Below are positions 34,168 through 58,952 of a stretch of 64,000 nucleotides of DNA, in pieces; position 1 is the first letter of the stretch, and the number at the start of each line of letters is the position of its first letter. The notes under the pieces are model-generated. The model did no database searches, had not been told where the DNA came from, and saw nothing but the letters and a program-made list of their open reading frames with translations. Both the position numbers and the translations under genes were made by a program. This DNA comes from Acidovorax sp. GBBC 1281 (GTDB lineage: Bacteria > Pseudomonadota > Gammaproteobacteria > Burkholderiales > Burkholderiaceae_C): NCBI RefSeq assembly GCF_028473645.1, contig NZ_CP097269.1, positions 3,738,001 to 3,802,000 on the forward strand, in the 5' to 3' direction.

Positions 34168-37100
34168 TCAGTCTGGCGCCGCAAACCGCCCGGCCTCCAG
34201 CGCGTCTCGCCGTTTGCTCGGCAGGTAGACCCCCTCCTCCGCTTCCCGGATTCGCTTCTGCCGCTGGTTCACGCTCTGGGCCAGCTGCATCGCCTGGATC
34301 CGGCGGTTGGGGTTCTTCTCGTTGAACCTGGCGATGTCCTCACGGGCAGCAGCCTTGCCCTCCTCATCTCCGGCCATGGCCGCCATGGCGAACTGCTCGA
34401 CCAAGGCGCTGCGCCGCGCCTGCAACGCCCGGTCGTGCTGCACGATGGCCGACTTGCCTTCGTATGCATTGCGCACGGAGGACGGCGAGAACCCGGCGGC
34501 TTGGCCCAGCAGCGCGGCGCTGCCCACCTCGTCCTGCACCACGATGCCCGACTTGTCGCGCACGCCCTCGGAGCCGTAGCGCAGCGACTTCAGCGGCCCG
34601 CGCAGTACGCTCGGTGCCATCGACTCCAGACCGCGCAGGTACTGGCCCTCGCCCATCAACTGCACGCCCTTCAGGGCGTTGATTCCGATGCCGGCAACCG
34701 GCCCCAGGGCGGCGGCCATGGCGGATTCGCCCAGGCGCTGCCCTTCAAGGCCCTCCTGCACGTCCGGGAAAATGAGCTTGTCCAAGCCCACCCGGCCCGA
34801 GACGTCCCACGGGGTCAGCCGAGACAGGCCGTGGGCCAGCACCTCGGCCGGCTTCTGCCCGAAGGTGTCAGCCAGCATGTTCTGCAGCGCCACCTGTGCA
34901 TCCCACGGTTCATCGTCGTCACCCCCCAGCATCGAGGCTGCGGCGAGTAGCGTCGTGACCATGGGCAGGCCCAGGGCCCCTGCGGCCAGGCCGTGCATGG
35001 TCAGCAGGCCGCCCAGCGCCTTGCGCGCCTGTGCGCGCGCCTCGGGCGTGGCGCCCTTCAACGACTGGTGGACATTGCGCGCCAGCGTGTAGACCATGTT
35101 CTGGCCGTACTGCTTGAACAGCAGCAGCACCCGCGCCACGTTGCCCTGCATGGCCCGGGGGCGGTTGTTGGAGCTGTAGTCGAAGTGGCCGTCGTAGGTG
35201 GCCTGCACAGCCTGCTCGTACGCTGCCTTCTCGCCCGCGCCGGCCTCGCGCGCCAGACGGTAGGCCGCCACAAACATCACCTGGCGATTGAACTTCTCGG
35301 CGTGGTGGAACAGAAAGCTCGCAGCGCGCATGACCGGCCGCAGCTTGTACGACACGTTCTGGTCCTCGCCCTGAGCGATACCGGCCAGGTCGTGGGCCAT
35401 GGTCACGTCGATCACCCCGGAGCGCACCGCCTCGTCGAAGGCGGCCTTTTCTTCCGCGCTCAGGCTGGCTGTGATGTCGTTCTTGCCGCGGGCGGCCTCG
35501 CCCGAGGCCTTGAGCAGCGCGGCGCTGGCCTTCTTGAAGCCCCACTTCGCCGCCATGACCGGGTAGGCCACCAGCGCAGTCTGGGTCAGGTTCACCATGG
35601 CCGACGCCGGCGACAGGCCCAGATGGAACATGAAGCCCAGGCTGGTGAGAGCAGTGGACACCGCGTTCGTCTTCGGGTTCATGGCGGCATCGTGGCGTTT
35701 GACCATCTCGTCCACCACCTGCTGTGCCTTCACCGAGTCGAAGCCGCTGTCGGTCGAGCCGGCATCCACGCGGCGCTGCATCTCGCCCAGCTCGTCCTGC
35801 AGGCGGTCACCGTACCGCAGCTTGGCCAAGTAGCTGGCGCCGTGAAACACGTTCTGAGCGAAGGCCCGGCGGGCGTCCTGGCTGAAACCGGGCGTGCCCT
35901 TGCGATGGATCCCGTGCTTGGCCCACGACAGGTCGGGCAGCGAGGACAGGTACAGCTGGCCCAGCGCATCCTCGAGCTCGGCGCGCTGCTTGCTGTCCAT
36001 GCCCTGCTTGTCCAGCACGCCGTAGAGCTGCTCCATGAAGCCGCGGCCCACGCTGTCACGCTCGGCCACGAAGTCCTTGGCCTTGAGCACCTTGCCCACC
36101 GTGTAACCCTTGCTGGTCGGGAACGCGCTTTGCAATTGTGCCTGCGCGGCATCCGCCTCGGCCATGGTTTCAGCCCGGCTCACGTTGGCCACCTTGCCCT
36201 CGGCGTCCTTGACCACCACCACGTACTGGCCGAAGCGGGCCAGCGGGAAATACACGCCCTTGATGTGGCCGAAGAACTCGTCGTCCATACGCTTGAGCAT
36301 GGCTGCCTTGCGCTCTGAGCTGAGCTCGGTGCGCTTGATGCGCTCCTTGATCGCGCCGCGCACGTCGCGCATGTGCTGGCGGTAGGTGTCCCGCGCACGG
36401 GCGTACACGTCCTTGGCGCCAGGCGTCAGGGCGTTGTAGCGCGCCTGCAGCCTGGTCCAGTCGATCTTGTTGTCGCCCTCCACGAAGTCACGCGACGGGT
36501 CGATCTGCGCCAGGGTGGAGTCGTGCATCAGCTCGGCCAGCGCGCGCTCGTCGGGCAGCTTGGCCCAGTCCTGCGCCAACTGGTCGGCGCCGGAGCCGGC
36601 CTCGTTCTTGTCGGCGTCCATACGCGCCATCAGGTCGCTGTACGTGCGCAGCTGGGGCAGCAGGCCGCCGTACACGTCGACCAGTTGCCGGCGGCCCAGC
36701 AGCTGCAGGCCCAGGCCACGGTAGTCGGCGGCCTTGTAGTCGGCCTGCTGCTTGAGGTTGGTCATGGTCACGGACTGGAGCGCTTTGCCCAACCGCTCGG
36801 CCGTCGGGTTCTCGTCGCGCGCGCGGTACCGGATGTCGGCGCTGTTCGGGTCGAAGGTGCCCCGGTTACCCGTAGCGGACTTGACCTGCCCGTGCTCGCG
36901 GATCATGTAGACCGTCTGGCTGCCACCATCACGCATGGCCACCTGAATGACGGCGCCGTCGTGGCGCTCCTGCAGGCCGGACTGCAGCATGCGATCAGCC
37001 TCCATCATGTTCTTGGCCTCCAGCCGCAGCGGGTTCTTCAGGGCTAAGTACACCGGCAGGATGTTCTGCGCTCCTCCCGCCATGCGCGCGTAGGTCCCGG

Positions 37101-37836
37101 CCACCTCCGGGCGGTCGGTGAAGAAGAACCCCATGCCGGCGTTGGCCGCCCCCGTCGTGGTGCCCGCCCGGGACTGGCTGAATTCGTTGAAGTCGCCGCC
37201 CGTGCCGTGGAACACGCGCAGCGGCTGGCCATTGCCGTCCACCACCTTGCTGTCGCCGAACCAGCGCTGAAACGCCAGGCTCTGGGTCTGGCCCACCGCA
37301 CGGAACCGCACGCCTGCGGGGCCGCCAGTGCCGCTACCGGCGTGCTCGATGGCACGCAGCACGAAGCGCTCGGCCTCGTTGTAGGTCATGCCTCGGATCC
37401 GCTTGGCCAAGGCATCCATCCCCATGCGCTCGGCGACGCCGGCCAGCCAGTTGGCCAAGGTGCGCACACGCAGACCCAGGCGGGTGCCGGCTTGCTTCTG
37501 GGCGCGCAGATCCTCAGCCACCACTGCCAGGCCTTCTTCGATGGCCAGGGCCTGGTACTGGGCCGTCAGTTCGCTGCCGGTGTGCCCCTGGTCGCGCAGG
37601 GCCTGCAGCTGCTGCTGCGCGTCCGGCGCCTCGCGCTTCCACCGGTCCGCGTACTCCTGCACGCGGCTGTCCCGCTTTGCCAAGTCCAGCATGGACTGCA
37701 CATAATCGGGTGCTGGCAACACATTGCGCACCCCCAGGTGAAACATCTCATGGAAAACCGTCTCAGCGATAGCGTCAGCACTCCCGTGAGCGGAGGCCAC
37801 GAGGACGATGCGGCCCTCGCCTGGTATCGCCGCCCC
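34168..37836 (-). pseudogene. PLxRFG-domain polyvalent phage protein, N-terminus removed by an IS5-family insertion
   Basis: 1222 codons remain before the IS boundary. In order: a zincin-like peptidase piece (AETVFHEMFHLG, an HExxH motif); a helical stretch; an ADP-ribosyltransferase-like domain (FGDSKVVDGNGQPLRVFHGT, then GFFFTDRPEVAGTYA); the family motif PLARFGQYVVVV; and a long helical C-terminal part with LGLSPASAMVNLTQTALVAYP, as in large polyvalent proteins of phages that are thought to be injected with the DNA. The start codon and an unknown N-terminal length are missing. The expected 5-prime part is not found on the far side of the IS, so sequence was deleted there. Probably not expressed as an intact protein. 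Confidence 0.82.
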
Positions 37837-38887
37837 GGCTTTGTTGCACAAATCGCGATGCTGATGCCCGTAGACTGACTGCGTGACAGAGACGAAGAAC
37901 AGGCAGCGGAGCAAGTACCGCACGACGAACTGGAAGGCGTACAACGCGGCGCTGAAAGCGCGAGGCTCGTTGACGATGTGGCTAGATGAGGGCATGCAGT
38001 GGTTTGGCACGCCGACCGGCAGGCGTGGACGCAGCCGAACCTTCTCGGACGCAGCAATCCAGTTCTGCCTGAGCATCAAGTGCCTGTTCGGCCAGCCCTT
38101 GCGACAGGCGCTGGGCATGGTGCAGAGCCTGCTGCGGCTGGCAAAGCTGGACTGGCCGGTACCTGACTTCAGCACTGTTTGCCGGCGCCAAAAGACCTTG
38201 CAGGTCGAACTGAGCTACCAGCGAACCAACTCGCCGCTGCAGTTGCTGGTGGACAGCACCGGCATCAAGTTCCTGGGCGAAGGAGAGTGAAAACGCAAGA
38301 AGCATGGTGCTGAATACCGGCGCGAATGGCGCAAGGTCCATCTGGGCATCGACGCGCAGACGCTGGAAATACGCGCCATCGAGGTGACCAGCAACGCCAT
38401 TGGGGATGCGCCGATGTTGCCCGGGTTGCTGGCTCAGATTCCCACTGACGAATCCATCGAAAGCGTCAGTGCCGATGGCGCCTACGACACGCGCGCCTGC
38501 CTGGACGCCATTGCCGAGCGGCACGCGATGGCGGTGATCCCGCCCCGCAAGAACGCCAGCCATTGGAAGAAGTCGAGTCCGGGCTCGGCGCATCGTAATG
38601 AGGCCATTCGGGCGTGCCAGCGCCTGGGTCGCGGCATTTGGAAGAAGTGGAGCGGCTACCACCGGCGCAGCCTTGTGGAGACGAAGATGCACTGCTTCAA
38701 GCGACTGGGCGAACGGGTGATCGCGCGCACGTTCGACCGCCAGGTTGTGGAGCTGCATGTCCGCGTGGCCTTGCTCAATCGGTTCAGTCAGATCGGCCGT
38801 CCTCACACCGTGTCGGTGACTGCTGTGGCATAGGTCCGTCTGGGGTTGGGGTCATGCCGTCTGCAATTCGATTTGTGCAACAGCGCC
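37837..38887 (+). mobile_element. IS5-family insertion sequence (about 1051 bp)
   Basis: The ends are inverted repeats: GGCTTTGTTGCACAAATCG at the left (from 37837) and, on the opposite strand, GGCGCTGTTGCACAAATCG at the right (to 38887); they differ at two positions. The single transposase gene inside runs rightward. I see no target duplication at the flanks (CCCC left, CTCT right), which fits deletion of adjacent DNA after insertion. Confidence 0.85.
37883..38833 (+). pseudogene. IS5-family transposase with a nonsense mutation
   Basis: The reading frame is continuous over 317 codons except for TGA at 38288-38290, where relatives have Trp (GEWK here reads GE-stop-K). One base change, TGG to TGA, explains it. 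DDE residues are Asp in LLVDSTGIKFLG (residue 124), Asp in SADGAYDTRA and Glu in YHRRSLVETKMHCFKRLGER. Because the second Asp and Glu lie after the stop, the shortened 135-residue product cannot be active. The element is immobile unless complemented or read through. Confidence 0.88.
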
Positions 38888-38922
38888 CTCTCTCACCCGC
38901 AATCTTCTTCTCACGAGGCCAC

Positions 38923-50629: not shown

Positions 50630-51517
50630 TTATTCCTCCCCGGCCGGACAAGGAGCGCGGTTGACACCCCGCGCACTCGGCCAGTTGCAAGCCAGGACTT
50701 TTGCGCCCTCGCGCAAGCGGTCGTAGCTTCGGTCGCCCAGGACGGTTTTCAGTTCGGCTGGCGGCAGGTTGGAGATGACGACCGTGGGCCGGCAGTGCTG
50801 GTATCGCATGTCGATCACGTCGTAGAGCTGCACCTGCTCTGCGTTGCTTTGGAACCCGACGCCGACCTCGTCCAGCACCAGCAGCGGCAGCTCGGCCATG
50901 AAGTCCACCACCTCAGAGGTTGTGCGCAGATCCGCGAATGCGTCGTCCTCCGGCATGTCCCAGGGGTCTGAGGCCCTGTGCGTGCGGTGCCCACCCTTCA
51001 CGCCGCCCCAACTGGCGCGCTGCATGTTGATGATCTGGCGGGCGCTGAACAGTCCGGCCATCTCGTGCTTCGCGCGGATCACGTGCTGGACCATGGAGCT
51101 GCCCAAGTGGGTCTTGCCCGTGCCGGGCGCGCCGATAAGCCATAGGCCACCACCGCTGGCTTCGTCGAACGTTTCCGCGAAGTTCCGGCAGGCCGCCAGC
51201 ACTCTGCGCTGCTCGTCACTGTCGCACACGAAGTTTTCGAACGACGCAGCGAGCATCCGGGGCTGCAGGCCGCTCTTGGCAAGTCGTCGCGCCAGCCGGC
51301 CAGCTGCCATCGCTTCCTTCGCCTCGCGCTCCTCTGCGGCCTGTCTTTCCCTCTCGCAGGTTGGGCACCCGGCCAACTTGCGCGAGTTGGGAAAGAAGGG
51401 CTTGGCTTCATAGGGCCCATGCTTGTCGCATGTCGCCAGCGTGGCTACAGCGGGTTGCGCATCGGCCACGGCTCTGCTGGGGCCGCTCGGCCTGGGGTTA
51501 GGCTGGGAGGGTTCCAT
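50630..51517 (-). CDS. DnaC-like AAA+ helicase-loader protein
   Basis: The 295-residue ATPase has Walker A GAPGTGKTH at about residue 128, Walker B LLVLDEVGVG, and a sensor-like YQHCRPTVVISNLPP. The N-terminal part has C30, C51 and C54 that could make a zinc site. Loaders of this type recruit the host replicative helicase to the phage origin. Its start overlaps the DUF1376 gene by 20 bases. With that gene it forms the replication module. Confidence 0.88.
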   Translation of the reverse strand: MEPSQPNPRPSGPSRAVADAQPAVATLATCDKHGPYEAKPFFPNSRKLAGCPTCERERQAAEEREAKEAMAAGRLARRLAKSGLQPRMLAASFENFVCDSDEQRRVLAACRNFAETFDEASGGGLWLIGAPGTGKTHLGSSMVQHVIRAKHEMAGLFSARQIINMQRASWGGVKGGHRTHRASDPWDMPEDDAFADLRTTSEVVDFMAELPLLVLDEVGVGFQSNAEQVQLYDVIDMRYQHCRPTVVISNLPPAELKTVLGDRSYDRLREGAKVLACNWPSARGVNRAPCPAGEE

Positions 51518-52496
51518 CTTCGTTCAGTCCTGCTGAGTAGTCGACTTTGTCGAAATCGGTGTGGCGGAGCGGTGTTCGGTTGTTGACGCGCGTGCCTGGC
51601 TGAGCCCCGCGGTGTTGAACGCCGTGCCCTGCTGCGTTTGCGTACCAGGTCGCCTTGAAACCCGCCCATCCGTGTTCGCAGCACGCCCTCAGTGCATCGG
51701 CCACCGACAGGCCTGCGGCTTCGGCTTCCCGCTGGATGCCCTGCAGCGCGGTCTCGGTGAGTGGGCCAACCTTTTTGCTCTTGCGGATGATCAGGTAGTC
51801 GGCCATCAGCTTGTCGTCCACGCCGGGGATGGATGCGATGGAGGCAGATGTACTGCCGCGCCTGCGCGGTGTATCTCCTCTACTACTTGGTGAATGGTGA
51901 CTGGTGTCTGGGGATTGGTGTCTGGTGTTTGGTGTCTGGGTAGCCGTTGCAGGCGTCGCAGGTGCCGTTTCAGTTTCTGTCACCTGAAACGTTTCAGGTG
52001 TTGCAGGCGTTTCAGGTGCAACATCTCTCCCCTCGCAGTTGCTCCCACCTGAAACGCCAGCTGTAAGATCTGCAACGCGCACCCGCAACTCCTTGATCGG
52101 AATGTTCCATTCAGCGTGAAGGCCCGCGCTCGTGAGCTTCTCGAAGAGTTCTGCACGTTCCTGCCTGTGACGGTGGAGACGGTTCTCTTTGTTGGCCTTC
52201 TTCGCTTCCCGTTCGGGCTCACCGGCCATGTACCGTGCAATCTCGTCGTCACAGCGCGCTTGGTGCCATCCATCCTCTCGCAGGTCGAAAAACTCCTGCA
52301 GAACAACCTCGACGGCCGCCTTCTCTTCTTTGGAGCGAGCCACTACCAATCGCTGGACAGCGATCACATCAACGGGGAGAGGCTTTTCAGTCGCGTAGTA
52401 CTTGCGCAGCAGCCGGCTGTACACCCCGTCTTCCAGAATGCTCAGGTGCTGCGTCGCTTCGGCATAGTCGCCAATGTGGTGCTCGTAATAGTTCAC
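51498..52496 (-). CDS. DUF1376 (YdaU-type) phage replication protein
   Basis: The product (332 residues) starts at GTG 52496 with the DUF1376 signature VNYYEHHIGDYAEATQHLSI and DGVYSRLLRKYYATEKPLP. The family is found next to DnaC-like loaders in prophages and is thought to act at the replication origin. A Thr/Pro/Ser/Gln-rich linker (about residues 160-200) leads to a C-terminal helical domain (LSVADALRACCEHGWAGFKA). The GTG overlaps the stop of the upstream gene (GTGA). Confidence 0.82.
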   Translation of the reverse strand: MNYYEHHIGDYAEATQHLSILEDGVYSRLLRKYYATEKPLPVDVIAVQRLVVARSKEEKAAVEVVLQEFFDLREDGWHQARCDDEIARYMAGEPEREAKKANKENRLHRHRQERAELFEKLTSAGLHAEWNIPIKELRVRVADLTAGVSGGSNCEGRDVAPETPATPETFQVTETETAPATPATATQTPNTRHQSPDTSHHSPSSRGDTPRRRGSTSASIASIPGVDDKLMADYLIIRKSKKVGPLTETALQGIQREAEAAGLSVADALRACCEHGWAGFKATWYANAAGHGVQHRGAQPGTRVNNRTPLRHTDFDKVDYSAGLNEDGTLPA

Positions 52497-52825
52497 CGAT
52501 CGCCCTCCCAACGCGCGCCAGGAGACGCCACTGCGTGCTTAGAACCCAGCCCCCACTCTCTGAGAACACGAAAGCGTTCCCCGCCACCCAGGAATCCGAG
52601 TTCAGCGAGAGCTTGGACGAAAACGCCCTTCTCCCCGCTCCAGTCGACGGCGAGTTCAATGTCCTCATCGGTCATACCTGACAGATCACCATCGCTCCGA
52701 TGCGATGCCGCCCAGAGGAAGAGGCAGACCAGGCGCCACCCGGCATCGCCACCAAGCCGGCGCACCAGCTTTTTGGTTTTCGGGTGGCCTGGCAGGCCCG
52801 TGGAAATTCGTGCATCAGTGGCCAT
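52493..52825 (-). CDS. Phage replication-region protein (hypothetical)
   Basis: The 110-residue product begins MATDARISTGLPGHPKTKKL, then RRLGGDAGWRLVCLFLWAAS and DLSGMTDEDIELAVDWSGE, a pattern often seen in small proteins just upstream of DUF1376 in prophages. The role is unknown, presumably replication. The start codon overlaps the stop of the IS-interrupted gene by 11 bases, and the stop overlaps the DUF1376 start, so three genes are translationally linked. Confidence 0.65.
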   Translation of the reverse strand: MATDARISTGLPGHPKTKKLVRRLGGDAGWRLVCLFLWAASHRSDGDLSGMTDEDIELAVDWSGEKGVFVQALAELGFLGGGERFRVLREWGLGSKHAVASPGARWEGDR

Positions 52826-52903
52826 CGGCTGAGCCCCCTATATCAAGAGCCTTCGCCGCAGCGAGGTATTCGGCGTATCGCGGCGGCTTCTTGCCCAGTA
52901 GAG

Positions 52904-53998
52904 CTAGTGTCCTGTCCCGTTAATTCGCCCGCATAGTCTGGCGAGTTTTTCGAGGATGGAGTCTGCTGTAGCTGTCCAAGTAAACGGCTGGCAGGACTGG
53001 TTGTAATTCGCGATGAATGTGTCGATCTTGTTGATCAGATCCTTCACGCTGGTGAACGAGCCACGGCGGATTGCCCGCGTGGTGATGATCGAGAAGAAGC
53101 GCTCGACCTGATTGAGCCAGCTTGAATAGGTCGGAACGAAGTGCATGTGCCAGCGAGGCCGCTCGGCCAACCAAGCGCGCACCTTTGGATGCTTGTGGCT
53201 GGCGTAGTTATCAGCTATGCAGTGCACATCCAGTTCGTCGGGCACTGCCTTGTCGATGGCGCGCAGGAAGGCAAGGAACTCTTGATGACGATGCCGGGGC
53301 CGGCACTGCGCGATCACTTGGCCATTCATCACGTTCAGGGCCGCGAACAAGGTGGTGGTGCCGTGGCGCACGTAGTCGTGCGTGACACCTTCGACATAGC
53401 CAAACCCCATTGGCAGCATCGGCTGCGTACGCTCCAAAGCTTGGCATTGGCTCTTCTCGTCCACGCACAGCACCAGCGCGTTGTCAGGTGGGTTCAGGTA
53501 CAGCCCCACAACGTCGCGCAGCTTCTCGATGAACAGCGGATCGGTCGACAGCTTGAAGCTGTCGGCCCGGTGCGGCTTGAGGTTGAAGGTCTGCAGATAG
53601 CGCGCCACCGTGCTCTTGCTGATGCCCGTATCGGCGGCCAGCGTGCGGGTGCTCCAGTGGGTACCCCCATCAGCAGGCTTGGTGTGCAACGTCTTGGTAA
53701 TCAACTCAGCAACACGCTCGTCATCTACCGTGCGGGGGCGACCCGGGCGCAACTCGTCGTAAAGCCCTGCAATGCGATGGCGCGCATAGCGCCCGCGCCA
53801 CTTGGTGACAGTGCTACGACTGATCCCCAGAGCCTGCGCAACCGCGGTGCTGGCTTTATCTGTGCCTTCGCAAGTCAGCACGATGCGCGCCCTGAGCGAC
53901 AACGCCGCTGGCAGCGAACGTGATCGCGCCATGGACGTCAGTTCCGCGCGCTCCACTTCACTAAGCGCAATTTCTGTTCGGGTCGTTGCATTGGGCAT
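52904..53998 (-). CDS. IS630-family transposase (copy 1)
   Basis: The 364-residue DDE transposase starts MPNATTRTEIALSEVERAEL. An N-terminal helix-turn-helix region (STAVAQALGISRSTVTKWRG) is followed by a second one (STRTLAADTGISKSTVARYLQ). Catalytic residues are D180 in CVDEKSQ, D263 in IADNYASHKHP and E299 in SSWLNQVERFF. The final codon is completed only by the target: TA plus the neighbouring G makes the TAG stop at 52904-52906. It appears intact and identical in protein to copy 2. Confidence 0.95.
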   Translation of the reverse strand: MPNATTRTEIALSEVERAELTSMARSRSLPAALSLRARIVLTCEGTDKASTAVAQALGISRSTVTKWRGRYARHRIAGLYDELRPGRPRTVDDERVAELITKTLHTKPADGGTHWSTRTLAADTGISKSTVARYLQTFNLKPHRADSFKLSTDPLFIEKLRDVVGLYLNPPDNALVLCVDEKSQCQALERTQPMLPMGFGYVEGVTHDYVRHGTTTLFAALNVMNGQVIAQCRPRHRHQEFLAFLRAIDKAVPDELDVHCIADNYASHKHPKVRAWLAERPRWHMHFVPTYSSWLNQVERFFSIITTRAIRRGSFTSVKDLINKIDTFIANYNQSCQPFTWTATADSILEKLARLCGRINGTGH

Positions 53999-54065
53999 GG
54001 CGGCACCTCAAGGATGGCCCGAAACCATGCAGCTATCGTGCCTGCGAATTAACGGGACAGGACAC
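52907..54065 (-). mobile_element. IS630-family element, copy 1 (1159 bp)
   Basis: Terminal inverted repeats of 22 bp are perfect: GTGTCCTGTCCCGTTAATTC continuing GC at each end. The element is flanked by the TA target duplication at 52905-52906 and 54066-54067. It carries one transposase gene on the minus strand. Copy 2 at 57281-58439 is the same length in the opposite orientation. Confidence 0.95.
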
Positions 54066-54499
54066 TAGCTCGTCGGCGATGCGCAGGCGCTCCCGGATTG
54101 CCGTGCGACGCTTACTCTCGAGGTCCTGCAGGTGGTTCCGGCCCTCCGCTTGCGCCATCACAAGGGTGATTCGCCCGATGGGACGCTCCCCTGCAAGTTG
54201 CTTGGAGTGTGCGTAGATGGTGGAGCCCAAGCCGCCAATCTGGCTTTGCAAGGACTGAATGTGCAGCTCTTCGGGAGTCATGGGGCGCCAGGACGATCTC
54301 CAGCGCGCCTCCTCCTCTTTTTTCATCTCCACATCTTCGAGATGGACTCTCAGTTGTGCCAGTTCGGGGAAGCTCTTAACGCCGTCTCCACCTAGCCAGG
54401 ACCACAGGTAAACCACTTGACCATCCGCCGGATCTGTCCTGAACACCTCGGCGTTGCATGCTGCGGCGCGCCGCCTGATGCTCACCCATGCGGCGCCGC

Positions 54500-54889
54500 T
54501 CATACCACGGCCCTCATGCTGACTCGGCCCGCAGCGCGCTCCATCCGCTCCGCAAGCTTGGCTTGCACGTTCACTGATTCGATGAACGCGCGCTGCAGTT
54601 CGGCCATCTCATCCTTGGGTTCGATCGGCTGCGCGGGTGCACAGCTCAATTCGCTCAGCATGAAATCAATGCCTGCCATGCAACCCTTGTCGCGCGCCAA
54701 GCGCAACAGCATCAACAGATGCTCGGGCGACAGACGCTCAGGCTTGTCCTCGTTCAAGCAGGCCAGTAGATGACGCTGGGCAGCGTCCACCGCCTTCTCA
54801 GGCCACAGCTTGTGCCCAACAACCTTGCTGCCGCCAGCGACTTTCACACACTCTATGAGCGCCTGATTGAAGCTCTCGTACTCACCCAT
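54500..54889 (-). CDS. Phage CII-family regulatory protein
   Basis: The 129-residue product contains ECVKVAGGSKVVGHKLWPEK and LSPEHLLMLLRLARDKGC, matching the phage regulatory CII family (P2/186-like), which sets the lysogeny decision. A C-terminal helix with EIDEMAELQRAFIES-type sequence follows. GGAG lies 6 bases before ATG 54889. It begins a leftward operon with the replication genes, downstream of Cro, though separated from it by 800 bases that carry two plus-strand genes. Confidence 0.78.
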   Translation of the reverse strand: MGEYESFNQALIECVKVAGGSKVVGHKLWPEKAVDAAQRHLLACLNEDKPERLSPEHLLMLLRLARDKGCMAGIDFMLSELSCAPAQPIEPKDEMAELQRAFIESVNVQAKLAERMERAAGRVSMRAVV

Positions 54890-54922
54890 GATCTGCTCCA
54901 GAAAATGCACCGTTCGCGGTCC

Positions 54923-54939
54923 TTCCCAAAAGTTGGGAA
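54923..54939. promoter_or_regulatory. 17-bp palindromic site between cII and the opposing gene
   Basis: TTCCCAA-AAG-TTGGGAA has perfect 7-bp arms. It lies 34 bases upstream of the cII start and 37 bases upstream of the ATG of the plus-strand gene at 54976, so one bound dimer could control both. It does not resemble the TTAGCC operators of the repressor. Confidence 0.6.
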
Positions 54940-54975
54940 CGCCGAGGAATGACATCAAAGAGGCGAAAAAAAACA

Positions 54976-55236
54976 ATGCGGGTCATGACCACACCACGCC
55001 ATTCCGACTTCGCCGCGGCACCCAGCGCCCGGCTTTTCCACACCAGCACCCGCACCCAGATGTCCACCAACATCGACCCAACCACGGGCCTGCGTACACG
55101 GCTGCTCGCCACATCCAGCATTGAGATGGCTTGGCAAAGCGGTGAGCTGTTACTGCGGGGCCGGGTGACGCGGACCAAGCTGGTTGACAGGGGCGATATG
55201 AGGCCCATGCCGCGCTGGCGGCGGGGGGAGCAGTGA
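54976..55236 (+). CDS. Small basic protein of unknown function, antisense in the early region
   Basis: The 86-residue product begins MRVMTTPRHSDFAAAPSARL and ends with a basic tail (RPMPRWRRGEQ). Third codon positions are mostly G or C, as in real genes here. In-frame starts at 54949 and 54985 are alternatives. It is Ser/Thr/Arg-rich with no recognised domain. It runs opposite to cro and cII within the early region, followed by a second small plus-strand gene, so the pair may be accessory cargo. Evidence is modest. Confidence 0.45.
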   Translation: MRVMTTPRHSDFAAAPSARLFHTSTRTQMSTNIDPTTGLRTRLLATSSIEMAWQSGELLLRGRVTRTKLVDRGDMRPMPRWRRGEQ

Positions 55237-55247
55237 TGGGTATGGGT

Positions 55248-55308
55248 GCCCGCCCTCTTCCGCTCTACGATGGTGTTTCTCAGGCAACCATCACGAAAGA
55301 GAGCGGGC
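55248..55308 (+). promoter_or_regulatory. Long imperfect hairpin in the leader of the next gene
   Basis: Bases 55248-55260 (GCCCGCCCTCTTC) pair with 55296-55308 (GAAAGAGAGCGGG-type arm, one mismatch), and inside it GATGGT (55269-55274) pairs with ACCATC (55287-55292). The 3-prime arm ends 3 bases before ATG 55312 and covers the purine-rich GAAAGAGAGCGG that would serve as ribosome site, so folding could limit translation. Confidence 0.5.
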
Positions 55309-55311
55309 GAA

Positions 55312-55578
55312 ATGACCCAAGACGAAGAGATCCTGAACCTGAAAGCGGACTTGGCAGGCGCACAGGTGGCCCTTGGCACGGCGATACGGGCGCTCATCAA
55401 GACTCACCCCCATCCAGACGCGTTACTCGCCGCAATTCACCGCGAGTACCAGGAGACGCTGGTGCTTTTGACCAACGGGCCAATGCCAGACCGGGCTCTG
55501 GAAGCGTTCCATGTGAGCTGGGAGTTGGTCGGCCCGGAAGACCCAGATGCGCAGCCATACGGCCCACCGCCCGGCTGA
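55312..55578 (+). CDS. Small phage protein of unknown function, antisense in the early region
   Basis: The 88-residue product starts MTQDEEILNLKADLAGAQVA, a coiled-coil-like helix, and continues IRALIKTHPHPDALLAAIHR; the end is Pro-rich. Codon use is of real-gene type. ATG 55312 sits directly after the hairpin. It points toward the cro stop (convergent, 119 bases apart). I do not recognise the family. Small helical proteins in this place sometimes modulate the repressor or the host; that is speculation. Confidence 0.6.
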   Translation: MTQDEEILNLKADLAGAQVALGTAIRALIKTHPHPDALLAAIHREYQETLVLLTNGPMPDRALEAFHVSWELVGPEDPDAQPYGPPPG

Positions 55579-55697
55579 TCGGGCGGAGCCGAACAGGGTC
55601 TGTGGGTGCTGCAGCGCCCCCGGCGGCGGGCGGGCGGGATAGCTTCGGCAGTGCCATTTCAGGCTCTGGCTCGCTTGGGCGCGAAGGGGGCAATTGG

Positions 55698-55928
55698 TCA
55701 GGCATGGGCGACGTCCTGAACCGCGGGAGCCTCTGCTTTGGAGGTCGCAGCATTGATGTCGATGTCCACAAGGAGATCCGGTCGCGCAAGCTCCAAGAAC
55801 ATCATTCGCGGCCGTGGAATGCCACTTTTCTTCCACTTCGTCACGCTTGGCACCGCAATGCCGAACAGGCGCGCAGCGGCGGAGGAACCGCCGAGCGCTC
55901 GAATGATTTGGGTAGCTTGAGCATTCAT
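55698..55928 (-). CDS. Cro-like phage repressor
   Basis: The 76-residue protein has a helix-turn-helix at about residues 16-35 (SSAAARLFGIAVPSVTKWKK) and the typical Cro spacing QIIRALGG before it and GIPRPRMMFLELARPDLL after it. It is divergent from the S24 repressor with three operators in the gap, so the two should compete as in lambda. A promoter on the minus strand can be drawn as TTGATT (-35), 17 bases, TGTTAT (-10), with the second operator between the hexamers. Confidence 0.85.
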   Translation of the reverse strand: MNAQATQIIRALGGSSAAARLFGIAVPSVTKWKKSGIPRPRMMFLELARPDLLVDIDINAATSKAEAPAVQDVAHA

Positions 55929-55940
55929 AAGGCGTTCATC

Positions 55941-56002
55941 TTAGCCTGGGCTAAAATAACACACAAGCCCAGGCTAATAATCAACTTGTTAGGCTAGGCT
56001 AA
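55941..56002. promoter_or_regulatory. Three operators between cro and the repressor gene (OR-like)
   Basis: Site 1 is TTAGCCTGGGCTAA (55941-55954), a perfect palindrome; site 2 is CAAGCCCAGGCTAA (55964-55977); site 3 is TTAGGCTAGGCTAA (55989-56002), overlapping the first base of the repressor ATG. Spacing between centres is about 23-25 bases, about two helical turns. Confidence 0.85.
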
Positions 56003-56754
56003 TGACTACGTTGCAAAGCAGATTGGCTGAGATGTTTCCGGACCCGAAGCCACGCGGCCTGCAAGCCCAGATTCAGCGGCTATGCGGCGTGTCTGCCGCG
56101 AGCGTGTCGAACTGGTTCAGCAATCCGGAGAAGGTGACCACAATCAGCCGTGAGAACGCGGAGAAGCTGGTTGCTGAATTTCGGCTGTCCGTGTCTCCTG
56201 CGTGGCTCGCGGAGGGAAAGCTGCCGAAAACATCAGCCGATGGCCCGTCACCTCCGCTCGCTCCAGCTCCGCACGAGGCGCCAAGCGACGAACTGGGTGA
56301 GCCTACAGACCTCGTCATCACCGAATACGCTACGGGTTGCGGCATGGGCACTCGGGGTCAACTGCTTCTGGAAGAGCAGCCAGGCATCATCAAGAGCTGG
56401 CGCGTGACGCAAGAATGGCTGCGGTTGAACGTGCCCAACCACTCAGGCTTGCGAAACCTCTGCATCGTGACAGGGTTCGGGCCGTCAATGCGGCCGATGT
56501 TCAACCCAGGCGATCCGCTGCTGGTGGACACCGGGGTTCGGGTGGTCAACCATGAGGGCGTCTACTTTTTCCGGGTTGGCGATGAAGGCTTCATCAAAAT
56601 GATCCAGCGAGTGCCCGAGTTCGATGGGCCCGGGTTCTGCCTGCGGATCATCTCCAAGAACCCCGACTACCCGCCCTACGACATTTCGCCGAAGAACCAG
56701 CACTTCGAAGTGCTGGGGAAGGTATTAACGGTGTGGCGCAGCGAGCAATATTGA
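56002..56754 (+). CDS. S24-peptidase (LexA/CI-like) phage repressor
   Basis: The 250-residue protein has an N-terminal DNA-binding domain (RLCGVSAASVSNWFSNPEK as helix-turn-helix, residues ~26-44), a Pro/Ala-rich linker, and the self-cleaving domain. The Ser/Lys dyad is S162 in FGPSMRPMFNPGD and K199 in GFIKMIQR. The probable cleavage bond is Cys113-Gly114 (ATGCGMG), like the Cys-Gly of P22 C2 repressor. It would keep the prophage silent until RecA-assisted cleavage after DNA damage. The gene appears intact. Two further operators follow it. Confidence 0.9.
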   Translation: MTTLQSRLAEMFPDPKPRGLQAQIQRLCGVSAASVSNWFSNPEKVTTISRENAEKLVAEFRLSVSPAWLAEGKLPKTSADGPSPPLAPAPHEAPSDELGEPTDLVITEYATGCGMGTRGQLLLEEQPGIIKSWRVTQEWLRLNVPNHSGLRNLCIVTGFGPSMRPMFNPGDPLLVDTGVRVVNHEGVYFFRVGDEGFIKMIQRVPEFDGPGFCLRIISKNPDYPPYDISPKNQHFEVLGKVLTVWRSEQY

Positions 56755-56785
56755 TACACAGGGGACAACACATCGAACAGAAAAT

Positions 56786-56823
56786 TTAGCCTAGGCTATT
56801 TACTTTTTATTAGCCCAGGCTAA
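56786..56823. promoter_or_regulatory. Two operators beyond the repressor gene (OL-like)
   Basis: TTAGCCTAGGCTAT (56786-56799) and TTAGCCCAGGCTAA (56810-56823) repeat the same half-site TTAGCC as the three sites upstream of the repressor. They bracket an AT-rich stretch TTTACTTTTTATT, where a rightward promoter for the gene at 56870 would lie. Confidence 0.85.
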
Positions 56824-56869
56824 ACTAGCTCCATCGCGCCGCATCCCGTGGCGCTCAAATGGAGCGAAG

Positions 56870-57271
56870 ATGGACGCAATCGAACTTGACGCCCTCCTGC
56901 TGGCGTCGCCGGCGGATCACCAGCGCCGCAGCGCGTTGGCTCGTCGCGCAGCGGCTGACGGCCGCTGGCCCGCCGCGGCGTGCGGCCTGCGTCATGCCTC
57001 TGCCATGGCCCGTGAGTGGGCTGACAAGGCAATAAAGCTGGCCGACCGGTGTGATGCAGAGGCCGAGAGTGGCCGCATCGCCTCAACCGTGGCTCCAACG
57101 CTGGTCGAAATCGCCGAGCCCGGCACGTTGCTGGAGCAGGCTGGACCGGTGACGATCGAAGCGCTCGAGGCTGGCCTGCTGGCCCTGGCCCACCACCTGG
57201 GCCGAGAGCATGCCGTGCACACGCGGCGCGCCATGGCCAATGTGCAGCGTTCGCACGCGGCCGGGGTGTGA
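56870..57271 (+). CDS. First gene of the rightward early operon, unknown function
   Basis: The 133-residue product is Ala-rich and helical (MDAIELDALLLASPADHQRR, then ALEAGLLALAHHLGREHAVH) with no recognised domain. It starts 47 bases after the last operator and is thus placed like the first gene of a lambda PL operon. The stop is followed after 2 bases by the ATG of the next gene, now separated from it by the IS630 element. Confidence 0.65.
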   Translation: MDAIELDALLLASPADHQRRSALARRAAADGRWPAAACGLRHASAMAREWADKAIKLADRCDAEAESGRIASTVAPTLVEIAEPGTLLEQAGPVTIEALEAGLLALAHHLGREHAVHTRRAMANVQRSHAAGV

Positions 57272-57280
57272 CCATGCCTA

Positions 57281-58439
57281 GTGTCCTGTCCCGTTAATTC
57301 GCAGGCACGATAGCTGCATGGTTTCGGGCCATCCTTGAGGTGCCGCCATGCCCAATGCAACGACCCGAACAGAAATTGCGCTTAGTGAAGTGGAGCGCGC
57401 GGAACTGACGTCCATGGCGCGATCACGTTCGCTGCCAGCGGCGTTGTCGCTCAGGGCGCGCATCGTGCTGACTTGCGAAGGCACAGATAAAGCCAGCACC
57501 GCGGTTGCGCAGGCTCTGGGGATCAGTCGTAGCACTGTCACCAAGTGGCGCGGGCGCTATGCGCGCCATCGCATTGCAGGGCTTTACGACGAGTTGCGCC
57601 CGGGTCGCCCCCGCACGGTAGATGACGAGCGTGTTGCTGAGTTGATTACCAAGACGTTGCACACCAAGCCTGCTGATGGGGGTACCCACTGGAGCACCCG
57701 CACGCTGGCCGCCGATACGGGCATCAGCAAGAGCACGGTGGCGCGCTATCTGCAGACCTTCAACCTCAAGCCGCACCGGGCCGACAGCTTCAAGCTGTCG
57801 ACCGATCCGCTGTTCATCGAGAAGCTGCGCGACGTTGTGGGGCTGTACCTGAACCCACCTGACAACGCGCTGGTGCTGTGCGTGGACGAGAAGAGCCAAT
57901 GCCAAGCTTTGGAGCGTACGCAGCCGATGCTGCCAATGGGGTTTGGCTATGTCGAAGGTGTCACGCACGACTACGTGCGCCACGGCACCACCACCTTGTT
58001 CGCGGCCCTGAACGTGATGAATGGCCAAGTGATCGCGCAGTGCCGGCCCCGGCATCGTCATCAAGAGTTCCTTGCCTTCCTGCGCGCCATCGACAAGGCA
58101 GTGCCCGACGAACTGGATGTGCACTGCATAGCTGATAACTACGCCAGCCACAAGCATCCAAAGGTGCGCGCTTGGTTGGCCGAGCGGCCTCGCTGGCACA
58201 TGCACTTCGTTCCGACCTATTCAAGCTGGCTCAATCAGGTCGAGCGCTTCTTCTCGATCATCACCACGCGGGCAATCCGCCGTGGCTCGTTCACCAGCGT
58301 GAAGGATCTGATCAACAAGATCGACACATTCATCGCGAATTACAACCAGTCCTGCCAGCCGTTTACTTGGACAGCTACAGCAGACTCCATCCTCGAAAAA
58401 CTCGCCAGACTATGCGGGCGAATTAACGGGACAGGACAC
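57281..58439 (+). mobile_element. IS630-family element, copy 2 (1159 bp)
   Basis: Same length and the same perfect 22-bp ends as copy 1, flanked by TA at 57279-57280 and 58440-58441, and in the opposite orientation. All stretches of the two copies that I compared by eye are identical, so they are recent. Confidence 0.95.
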
Positions 58440-58442
58440 TAG
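57348..58442 (+). CDS. IS630-family transposase (copy 2)
   Basis: The 364-residue product is identical in sequence to copy 1, with D180, D263 and E299 in place. Its TAG stop is again made from the duplicated TA plus the next host base. Transcription runs rightward toward the operon genes, so it could supply promoter activity to them. Confidence 0.95.
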   Translation: MPNATTRTEIALSEVERAELTSMARSRSLPAALSLRARIVLTCEGTDKASTAVAQALGISRSTVTKWRGRYARHRIAGLYDELRPGRPRTVDDERVAELITKTLHTKPADGGTHWSTRTLAADTGISKSTVARYLQTFNLKPHRADSFKLSTDPLFIEKLRDVVGLYLNPPDNALVLCVDEKSQCQALERTQPMLPMGFGYVEGVTHDYVRHGTTTLFAALNVMNGQVIAQCRPRHRHQEFLAFLRAIDKAVPDELDVHCIADNYASHKHPKVRAWLAERPRWHMHFVPTYSSWLNQVERFFSIITTRAIRRGSFTSVKDLINKIDTFIANYNQSCQPFTWTATADSILEKLARLCGRINGTGH

Positions 58443-58739
58443 CACCCACCGCACACCACTCCTCATGGACGCGGCCGCTGGCGAATTCGCGTTCAACAAC
58501 GCTCAGTGGCACGCTCAGCAGTCGCGCTATTGGCGCCGCATGAAGATCGCGAAAGACGCAGCAGTTGCGCCAGGCCGCTGTGAGCACCACGCCCGCCGCC
58601 ACGAGCGTCGCGTCATCGAGATCGCGCAGCAGTGCGAGGCTGCACTGGTCAGCCGTGCGCGAGACGCTGGAGTCTACGGATTCAAAACTGAAGGCGTGCG
58701 CAAACTGGTCAGCCATGCGCGCGACGCTGGAGCTACAGC

Positions 58740-58952
58740 ATGAGCAGCGCACTACCAGCACCGGAACCAACCGCTGAGCACGATCTGTGGGAAGACGTCG
58801 ATTTTTCGACCATCCCCCTGCCCACCGCGCTCCGCATTCAGCGAGCCATGATGGCCGACAGCGTCGCTGCCGCAGAGGCCAACCTGCAGATGCTGCAGGC
58901 GGCGGCGAGGCTGTTCGACCTGCGCTTCGGCTTCAATGGAAAGGCCGTTTGA
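58740..58952 (+). CDS. Small phage protein, unknown function
   Basis: The 70-residue product starts MSSALPAPEPTAEHDLWEDV and has one amphipathic helix, MADSVAAAEANLQMLQAAARL. The ATG overlaps the previous stop (ATGA) and its own stop overlaps the next start (TGATG). No domain recognised; translational coupling suggests a fixed ratio with the neighbours. Confidence 0.65.
   Translation: MSSALPAPEPTAEHDLWEDVDFSTIPLPTALRIQRAMMADSVAAAEANLQMLQAAARLFDLRFGFNGKAV

Follow-up and report, generated by a model that had tools for sequence, protein, structure and literature searches.

Two separate IS630-family insertions very probably account for the bracketed immunity region of a predicted lambda-like prophage in Acidovorax sp. 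GBBC 1281

Introduction

Insertion sequences of the IS630 family (IS630/Tc1/mariner), such as IS630 of Shigella sonnei and ISY100, combine a DDE_3 transposase carrying helix-turn-helix domains with inverted ends and a CTAG target in which the TA is duplicated. Going by its title, a 1991 report by Tenzen and Ohtsubo is said to concern the preference of IS630 for the TA in CTAG as well as an IS630-associated composite transposon. For ISY100, TA duplication has been documented (PMC2170065).

Lambda-like immunity regions are built around divergent cro-like and CI genes with operator-like sites on both sides of CI. Downstream of cro they carry a cII-like gene and genes for replication. Decaying (grounded) prophages, the subject of a review (PMC6379469), are riddled with insertion elements in their early and auxiliary genes. 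On IS630 in Acidovorax, or on IS-flanked or inverted immunity regions, we found nothing on point in the literature covered, which mostly excluded subscription journals.

Here, we analyzed a 64,000-nt stretch of DNA from Acidovorax sp. GBBC 1281 (the window, with positions counted from its first base) in which the immunity region of a predicted prophage lies between two inverted IS630-family copies. These elements have all of the family traits named above and differ from the family in nothing essential, the comparison being made through transposase profiles, inverted ends, and target site. The immunity region has the gene arrangement described for lambda-like phages, but with three plus two TTAGCC-NN-GGCTAA sites, an additional small gene behind the second of these sets, and two IS copies in the early operons. 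Insertion elements occur in early and auxiliary genes as in grounded prophages, except that here two of them happen to bracket the immunity region. The original prediction, made from the letters of the window, had read the bracket as a regulatory switch that recombination would flip or, alternatively, as a portable immunity cassette.

Results

Compared base by base, the left copy and the reverse complement of the right copy show no mismatch in 1159 positions, which bears out the predicted pair of equally long, inverted, and identical elements with 22-bp ends; the first 22 bases are common to both ends of each copy. The identity extends slightly beyond the elements (52903-54068 and 57278-58443) because both are inserted in CTAG. 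Their transposase genes point outward, on the minus strand in the left copy and the plus strand in the right, and the product scores 262.4 bits against NCBIfam transpos_IS630 (cut-off 100) and 71.3 bits against Pfam DDE_3 (cut-off 28.6), with its best named relatives, from Variovorax sp. OK212, being 85% identical. Transposase type, inverted ends, and insertion at TA with duplication of TA are all those of the IS630 family.

Table 1. Features of the bracketed immunity region and its surroundings
Feature	Position in window	Strand	Remark
Leftward-operon replication genes: DnaC-like loader, DUF1376/primosomal, replication-initiation N-terminal part	50630..52825	-	predicted from profile matches
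Split phage gene, last part, outside left IS	52818..52906	-	last ~30 residues of 5/5 homologues
Outer target half of left copy, CTA then IS	52903..52906		with 54066-54068 = CTAG, TA duplicated
Left-copy transposase	52904-53998	-	stop codon supplied by flank
Left IS630-family copy, 1159 bp	52907..54065	-	identical to right copy
Split phage gene, first part, truncated by left IS	54069..54503	-	residues 1 to 146-148 of 5/5 homologues
cII-like gene	54500..54931	-	Pfam Phage_CP76 E 2.8e-4, below cut-off; phrog_24214 2.4e-19
cro-like gene	55698..55928	-	Pfam P22_Cro E 7.1e-6, below cut-off; phrog_409, phrog_8008
Three operator-like palindromes, 55941, 55964, 55989	55941..56002		between cro and CI
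CI-type repressor, Peptidase_S24 domain	56002..56754	+	Pfam Peptidase_S24; phrog_4 transcriptional repressor
Two operator-like palindromes, 56786, 56810	56786..56823		between CI and 133-aa gene
First rightward-operon gene, 133 aa, intact	56870..57271	+	no assigned function; homologues in L057, L121
Right IS630-family copy, 1159 bp	57281..58439	+	0/1159 mismatches to left copy
Right-copy transposase	57348-58442	+	stop codon supplied by flank
Outer target half of right copy, TAG	58440..58443		flank sequence
Next rightward-operon genes, outside right IS	58465..58952	+	reading frames; 58740-58952 homologue in L057

Between the two copies lie, in order, a truncated gene, the cII-like gene, a stretch without recognized genes, the cro-like gene, CI, and the 133-aa gene (Table 1). 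Further left follow genes for the terminase small subunit, the portal, and the major head protein, and to the right of the bracket the rightward operon continues, mostly with genes without known function; its predicted gene content makes the prophage lambda-like. The assignment of CI, predicted from its Peptidase_S24 domain (50.5 bits, cut-off 23.3), is firm. The names cII and cro are suggested tentatively by gene position together with Pfam matches below cut-off (21.2 bits against 26 for the cII-like and 26.1 against 30.2 for the cro-like protein); phrog_24214, matched by the former, is a family of unknown function, while the families matched by the latter are annotated as transcriptional regulator (phrog_409) and DNA binding (phrog_8008). 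The gene list first drawn up for the segment thus held broadly, with less assurance for these two names; it had overlooked the truncation of the gene at 54069-54503 by the left copy and the position of both sets of operator-like sites inside the bracket. No recombinase family was recognized in a scan of predicted genes of the segment that covered part of its short reading frames.

The operator-like sites follow the palindrome TTAGCC-NN-GGCTAA with at most two mismatches. This pattern matches six times in the window, five of the matches being the sites of the immunity region, against an average of 0.022 and a maximum of one in 500 shuffles of the stretch, a control that is flattering since the pattern was derived from the five sites themselves. 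An independent check is offered by L135, a viral contig whose cro-like protein is 70% identical: between cro and CI it carries three sites spaced as here, by 23 and 25 bases, and another two follow downstream of CI. Other related loci hold only scattered matches, such as three in L125 with two mismatches each. Divergent CI and cro-like genes with predicted operators on both sides of CI correspond to a lambda-like region. No sigma-70-like promoter was found at the operator-like sites, the single match in the region lying elsewhere (1.9 expected), and terminator-like sites numbered two in the region against 4.7 expected, with none inside the IS copies.

The orientation of the segment can be read from the gene that the left copy splits. 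In all five of its homologues (173-177 aa), residues 1 to 146-148 match directly inside the left IS, and the last ~30 residues (from 144-148) match directly outside it, at 52907-52818, with 70-93% identity in this outer part. Since both halves adjoin the left IS in every case, the segment still has its original neighbor at the inner left end and is therefore not inverted; inversion would have brought different DNA to this position. Judged by these homologues, the left junction is original and the segment lies in its ancestral orientation. An inversion already present in this assembly was rejected on the split gene and on the gene order of relatives, and no flipped form was found in the one genome of the species or in the relatives compared.

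A related prophage of the same genus (L057, in genome G012) is collinear with this one and has the same strands on both sides of the bracketed region, with the transposase absent. Its order is A-gene, DnaC, replication gene, cII-like gene, 133-aa gene, and outer rightward genes; for the cro-like protein, CI, and the split gene it has no detectable homologue, and these were placed by position alone. Homologues of the 133-aa gene stand in the same place in L057 (53.6% identical) and in L121 (60.8%), followed in L057 by the homologue of 58740-58952, and the outer rightward genes come after the 133-aa gene in L057 and, with weaker support, in L121. L120 has the same match pattern as L057, and the two look like the same phage and do not count as independent. 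The gene at 58465-58743 has three homologues, which were used for kinship only. Among 19 related loci, many of them short, the transposase is absent from all, and the cII-like gene and the replication-side gene are both present in eight, in each of which they lie on the same strand as here. No relative with a letter-for-letter empty right site was found, and for the right junction the evidence is gene order. Because the inner genes are collinear with the outer genes in an IS-free relative, the segment was not introduced by the IS pair.

The segment between the copies occurs once in the genome. Among 199 genomes searched, this one included, 21 gave a match, the longest one outside this genome covering 494 bases of the cII region with 83% identity, and the rest were short or partial; neither 50,697 phage records nor 72,556 plasmid records gave any. 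In viral contigs, the patterns of both inner junctions had no match. The search for CI relatives gave three in viral contigs and 104 pattern stretches in genome contigs, none of the latter being confirmed as a relative.

The 20-base IS end is found 51 times forward and 52 times in reverse in the genome, which amounts to ~51 complete copies plus a single unpaired end near 2568633. We read 50 of these ~51 copies (contig 2 does not hold the remaining one), split 24 to 26 between the strands; all 50 are identical over 1159 bases and flanked by CTA and TAG, and all 40 scored full-length matches of the IS are 100% identical. The exact identity of the bracketing pair carries no special meaning, because it is common to all 50 copies, and a special gene conversion of the pair was rejected on the same count. 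So many identical copies would imply recent transposition activity.

Five neighboring pairs among the 50 copies are spaced as closely as this pair or closer, with one tandem array accounting for two of the five. Three of the five are inverted, the two besides this one being 3917516/3919414 and 4501487/4503863. Random placement of 50 copies gives a mean of 1.86 close pairs, 0.93 of them inverted, with a probability of 0.61 for at least one inverted close pair, 0.065 for at least three, and 0.032 for at least five close pairs of any kind. Clustering of the IS over the whole genome is mild, and the bracketing of the immunity region is not clearly more than chance.

The target of the element is CTAG, of which the TA is duplicated. 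One such CTAG belongs to an element of the IS5 family (NCBIfam transpos_IS5_2, 347.4 bits, cut-off 140) that is itself repeated in this genome; it is empty in 30 copies and occupied by the IS630-family element in 19, in one orientation in 16 and in the other in three, which shows that insertion at CTAG is precise. Mismatched flanks were seen at four of the 50 IS630-family copies (94621, 1956557, 3129715, and 4501487), where carrier sequence borders just one end of the IS, or the same side of the carrier borders both ends. Recombination between IS copies is the likely cause, although deletions or truncated carriers could also have produced them; from these four copies, recombination at IS copies probably happens in this lineage.

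Discussion

We consider it very probable that two separate chance insertions of an IS630-family element into a lambda-like prophage left the bracket as a by-product; in short, these are ordinary IS insertions in a prophage, with no evidence of a switch or a cassette. The element would recently have multiplied to ~51 identical copies in this genome, and this genome-wide burst would explain both the identity of the pair and the bracketing. Two independent cut-and-paste insertions at CTAG sites of the prophage would then have broken the gene between cII and the replication genes on the left and entered the gap after the first rightward gene, between two genes, on the right. Both sites are in early operons that would be kept silent in the lysogen, so the insertions would cost the host little and may be neutral, while adding to prophage decay and reducing lytic function. 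An IS5-family copy at 37834-38890 seems to have cut short another gene of this prophage, the DarB-like one, and the prophage is therefore probably decaying. What speaks against chance insertion is the mild clustering of IS copies, with more close pairs than the random mean.

An alternative is that the 3.2-kb segment is turned round by host recombination acting on the inverted copies, so that the early operons following the cro side and the CI-downstream side are swapped; the operator-like sets would travel with the segment, giving repression in both states and a different induced programme. The geometry that the original prediction relied on is present, with perfect 1.16-kb inverted repeats around the regulatory segment and the cro-like gene, CI, and all five operator-like sites inside, and we infer that recombination between the copies would swap which early operon each operator-like set faces. 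As an existing state, however, the flip finds no footing, because the left junction is original in five of five comparisons and relatives have the same gene order, strands, and orientation. The four copies elsewhere with non-matching flanks look as recombination would leave them, but could also stem from the other causes named above; the 22-bp ends and the identity are those of every copy read, and the scanned genes of the segment include no recognized site-specific recombinase. On this evidence such a switch is very unlikely. Flipping by homologous recombination as such is possible, but any inverted IS pair in this genome would share that property, and we saw no sign of it at this locus. It is very unlikely that the pair forms an acquired, reversible immunity inverter, with the IS copies as recombination arms and both orientations repressed in the lysogen; if it did, induction would start a different early programme in each orientation, the replication genes following the CI-downstream promoter side in one and the cro side in the other.

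That the repressor region travels as a whole between the outermost IS ends, as a composite transposon and portable immunity cassette, is extremely improbable. Two identical IS630-family copies do flank the segment, and an IS630-associated composite transposon has reportedly been described, going by the title of Tenzen and Ohtsubo 1991. Against this, the segment was found neither at a second place with the outer ends nor as foreign to its surroundings: it is single-copy, without a full-length match in the relatives searched or any match in phages and plasmids, its inner junction patterns are missing from the viral contigs, and inner and outer genes are collinear in a relative without the IS. 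We rejected the composite transposon on copy number and on these searches. An assembly artefact, in which one copy was misplaced owing to the ~51 identical repeats of 1159 bp, is highly unlikely, since at the left junction the IS stands between the two halves of a single gene and the operon order is kept on the right side, neither of which a misjoin would give; the chromosome was moreover assembled as one contig of 5695567 bases.

With two chance insertions as the preferred reading, the locus illustrates that a burst of IS copies leaves brackets that catch the eye yet are accidental, and with ~50 identical copies in a genome, inverted pairs around interesting loci are to be expected. One identical CTAG target, empty in 30 of its copies and filled in 19, makes a clean natural set of insertion sites for studying the target choice of IS630. 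Were the segment found to flip in culture, it would offer an uncomplicated example of a phage switch rewired by two IS copies.

Distribution and use of the CTAG target

CTAG, the target of the 1159-bp IS630-family element, is rare in the window, with 21 occurrences against 62 expected from the counts of CTA, TAG and TA. Four of the 21 lie at the edges of IS630 copies, and four lie within the prophage immunity segment bracketed by the two inverted copies. Two of the five operator-like palindromes of this region also carry a central CTAG (55989–56002 and 56786–56799), so that the IS630 element could, in principle, insert into an operator-like site.

The stop codon of the IS630 transposase lies outside the 1159-bp element, at 52904–52906 for the left copy and 58440–58442 for the right copy. 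This TAG is composed of the duplicated TA and the G of the CTAG target, and the flank supplying it was present in all 50 IS630 copies read.

IS5-family elements as carriers of the target

The DarB-like antirestriction gene appears to be truncated, as its reading frame matches only the final part of its profile. The IS5-family element located there contains an empty CTAG target at 37982.

IS5-family element and associated reading frame in the window
Feature	Coordinates	Remark
IS5-family element	37834–38890	At start of DarB-like reading frame
DarB-like antirestriction reading frame	34168–38175	

Elsewhere on the chromosome (contig G000:C1), three IS630 copies in one orientation, separated by two spacers of exactly 755 bp each, form a tandem array (locus L152, G000:C1:1953643–1960629). 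Across this contig, one CTAG of the IS5-family carrier was empty in 30 copies and filled by the IS630 element, in both orientations, in 19, which points either to a hot target or to co-amplification of a nested IS630-in-IS5 pair.
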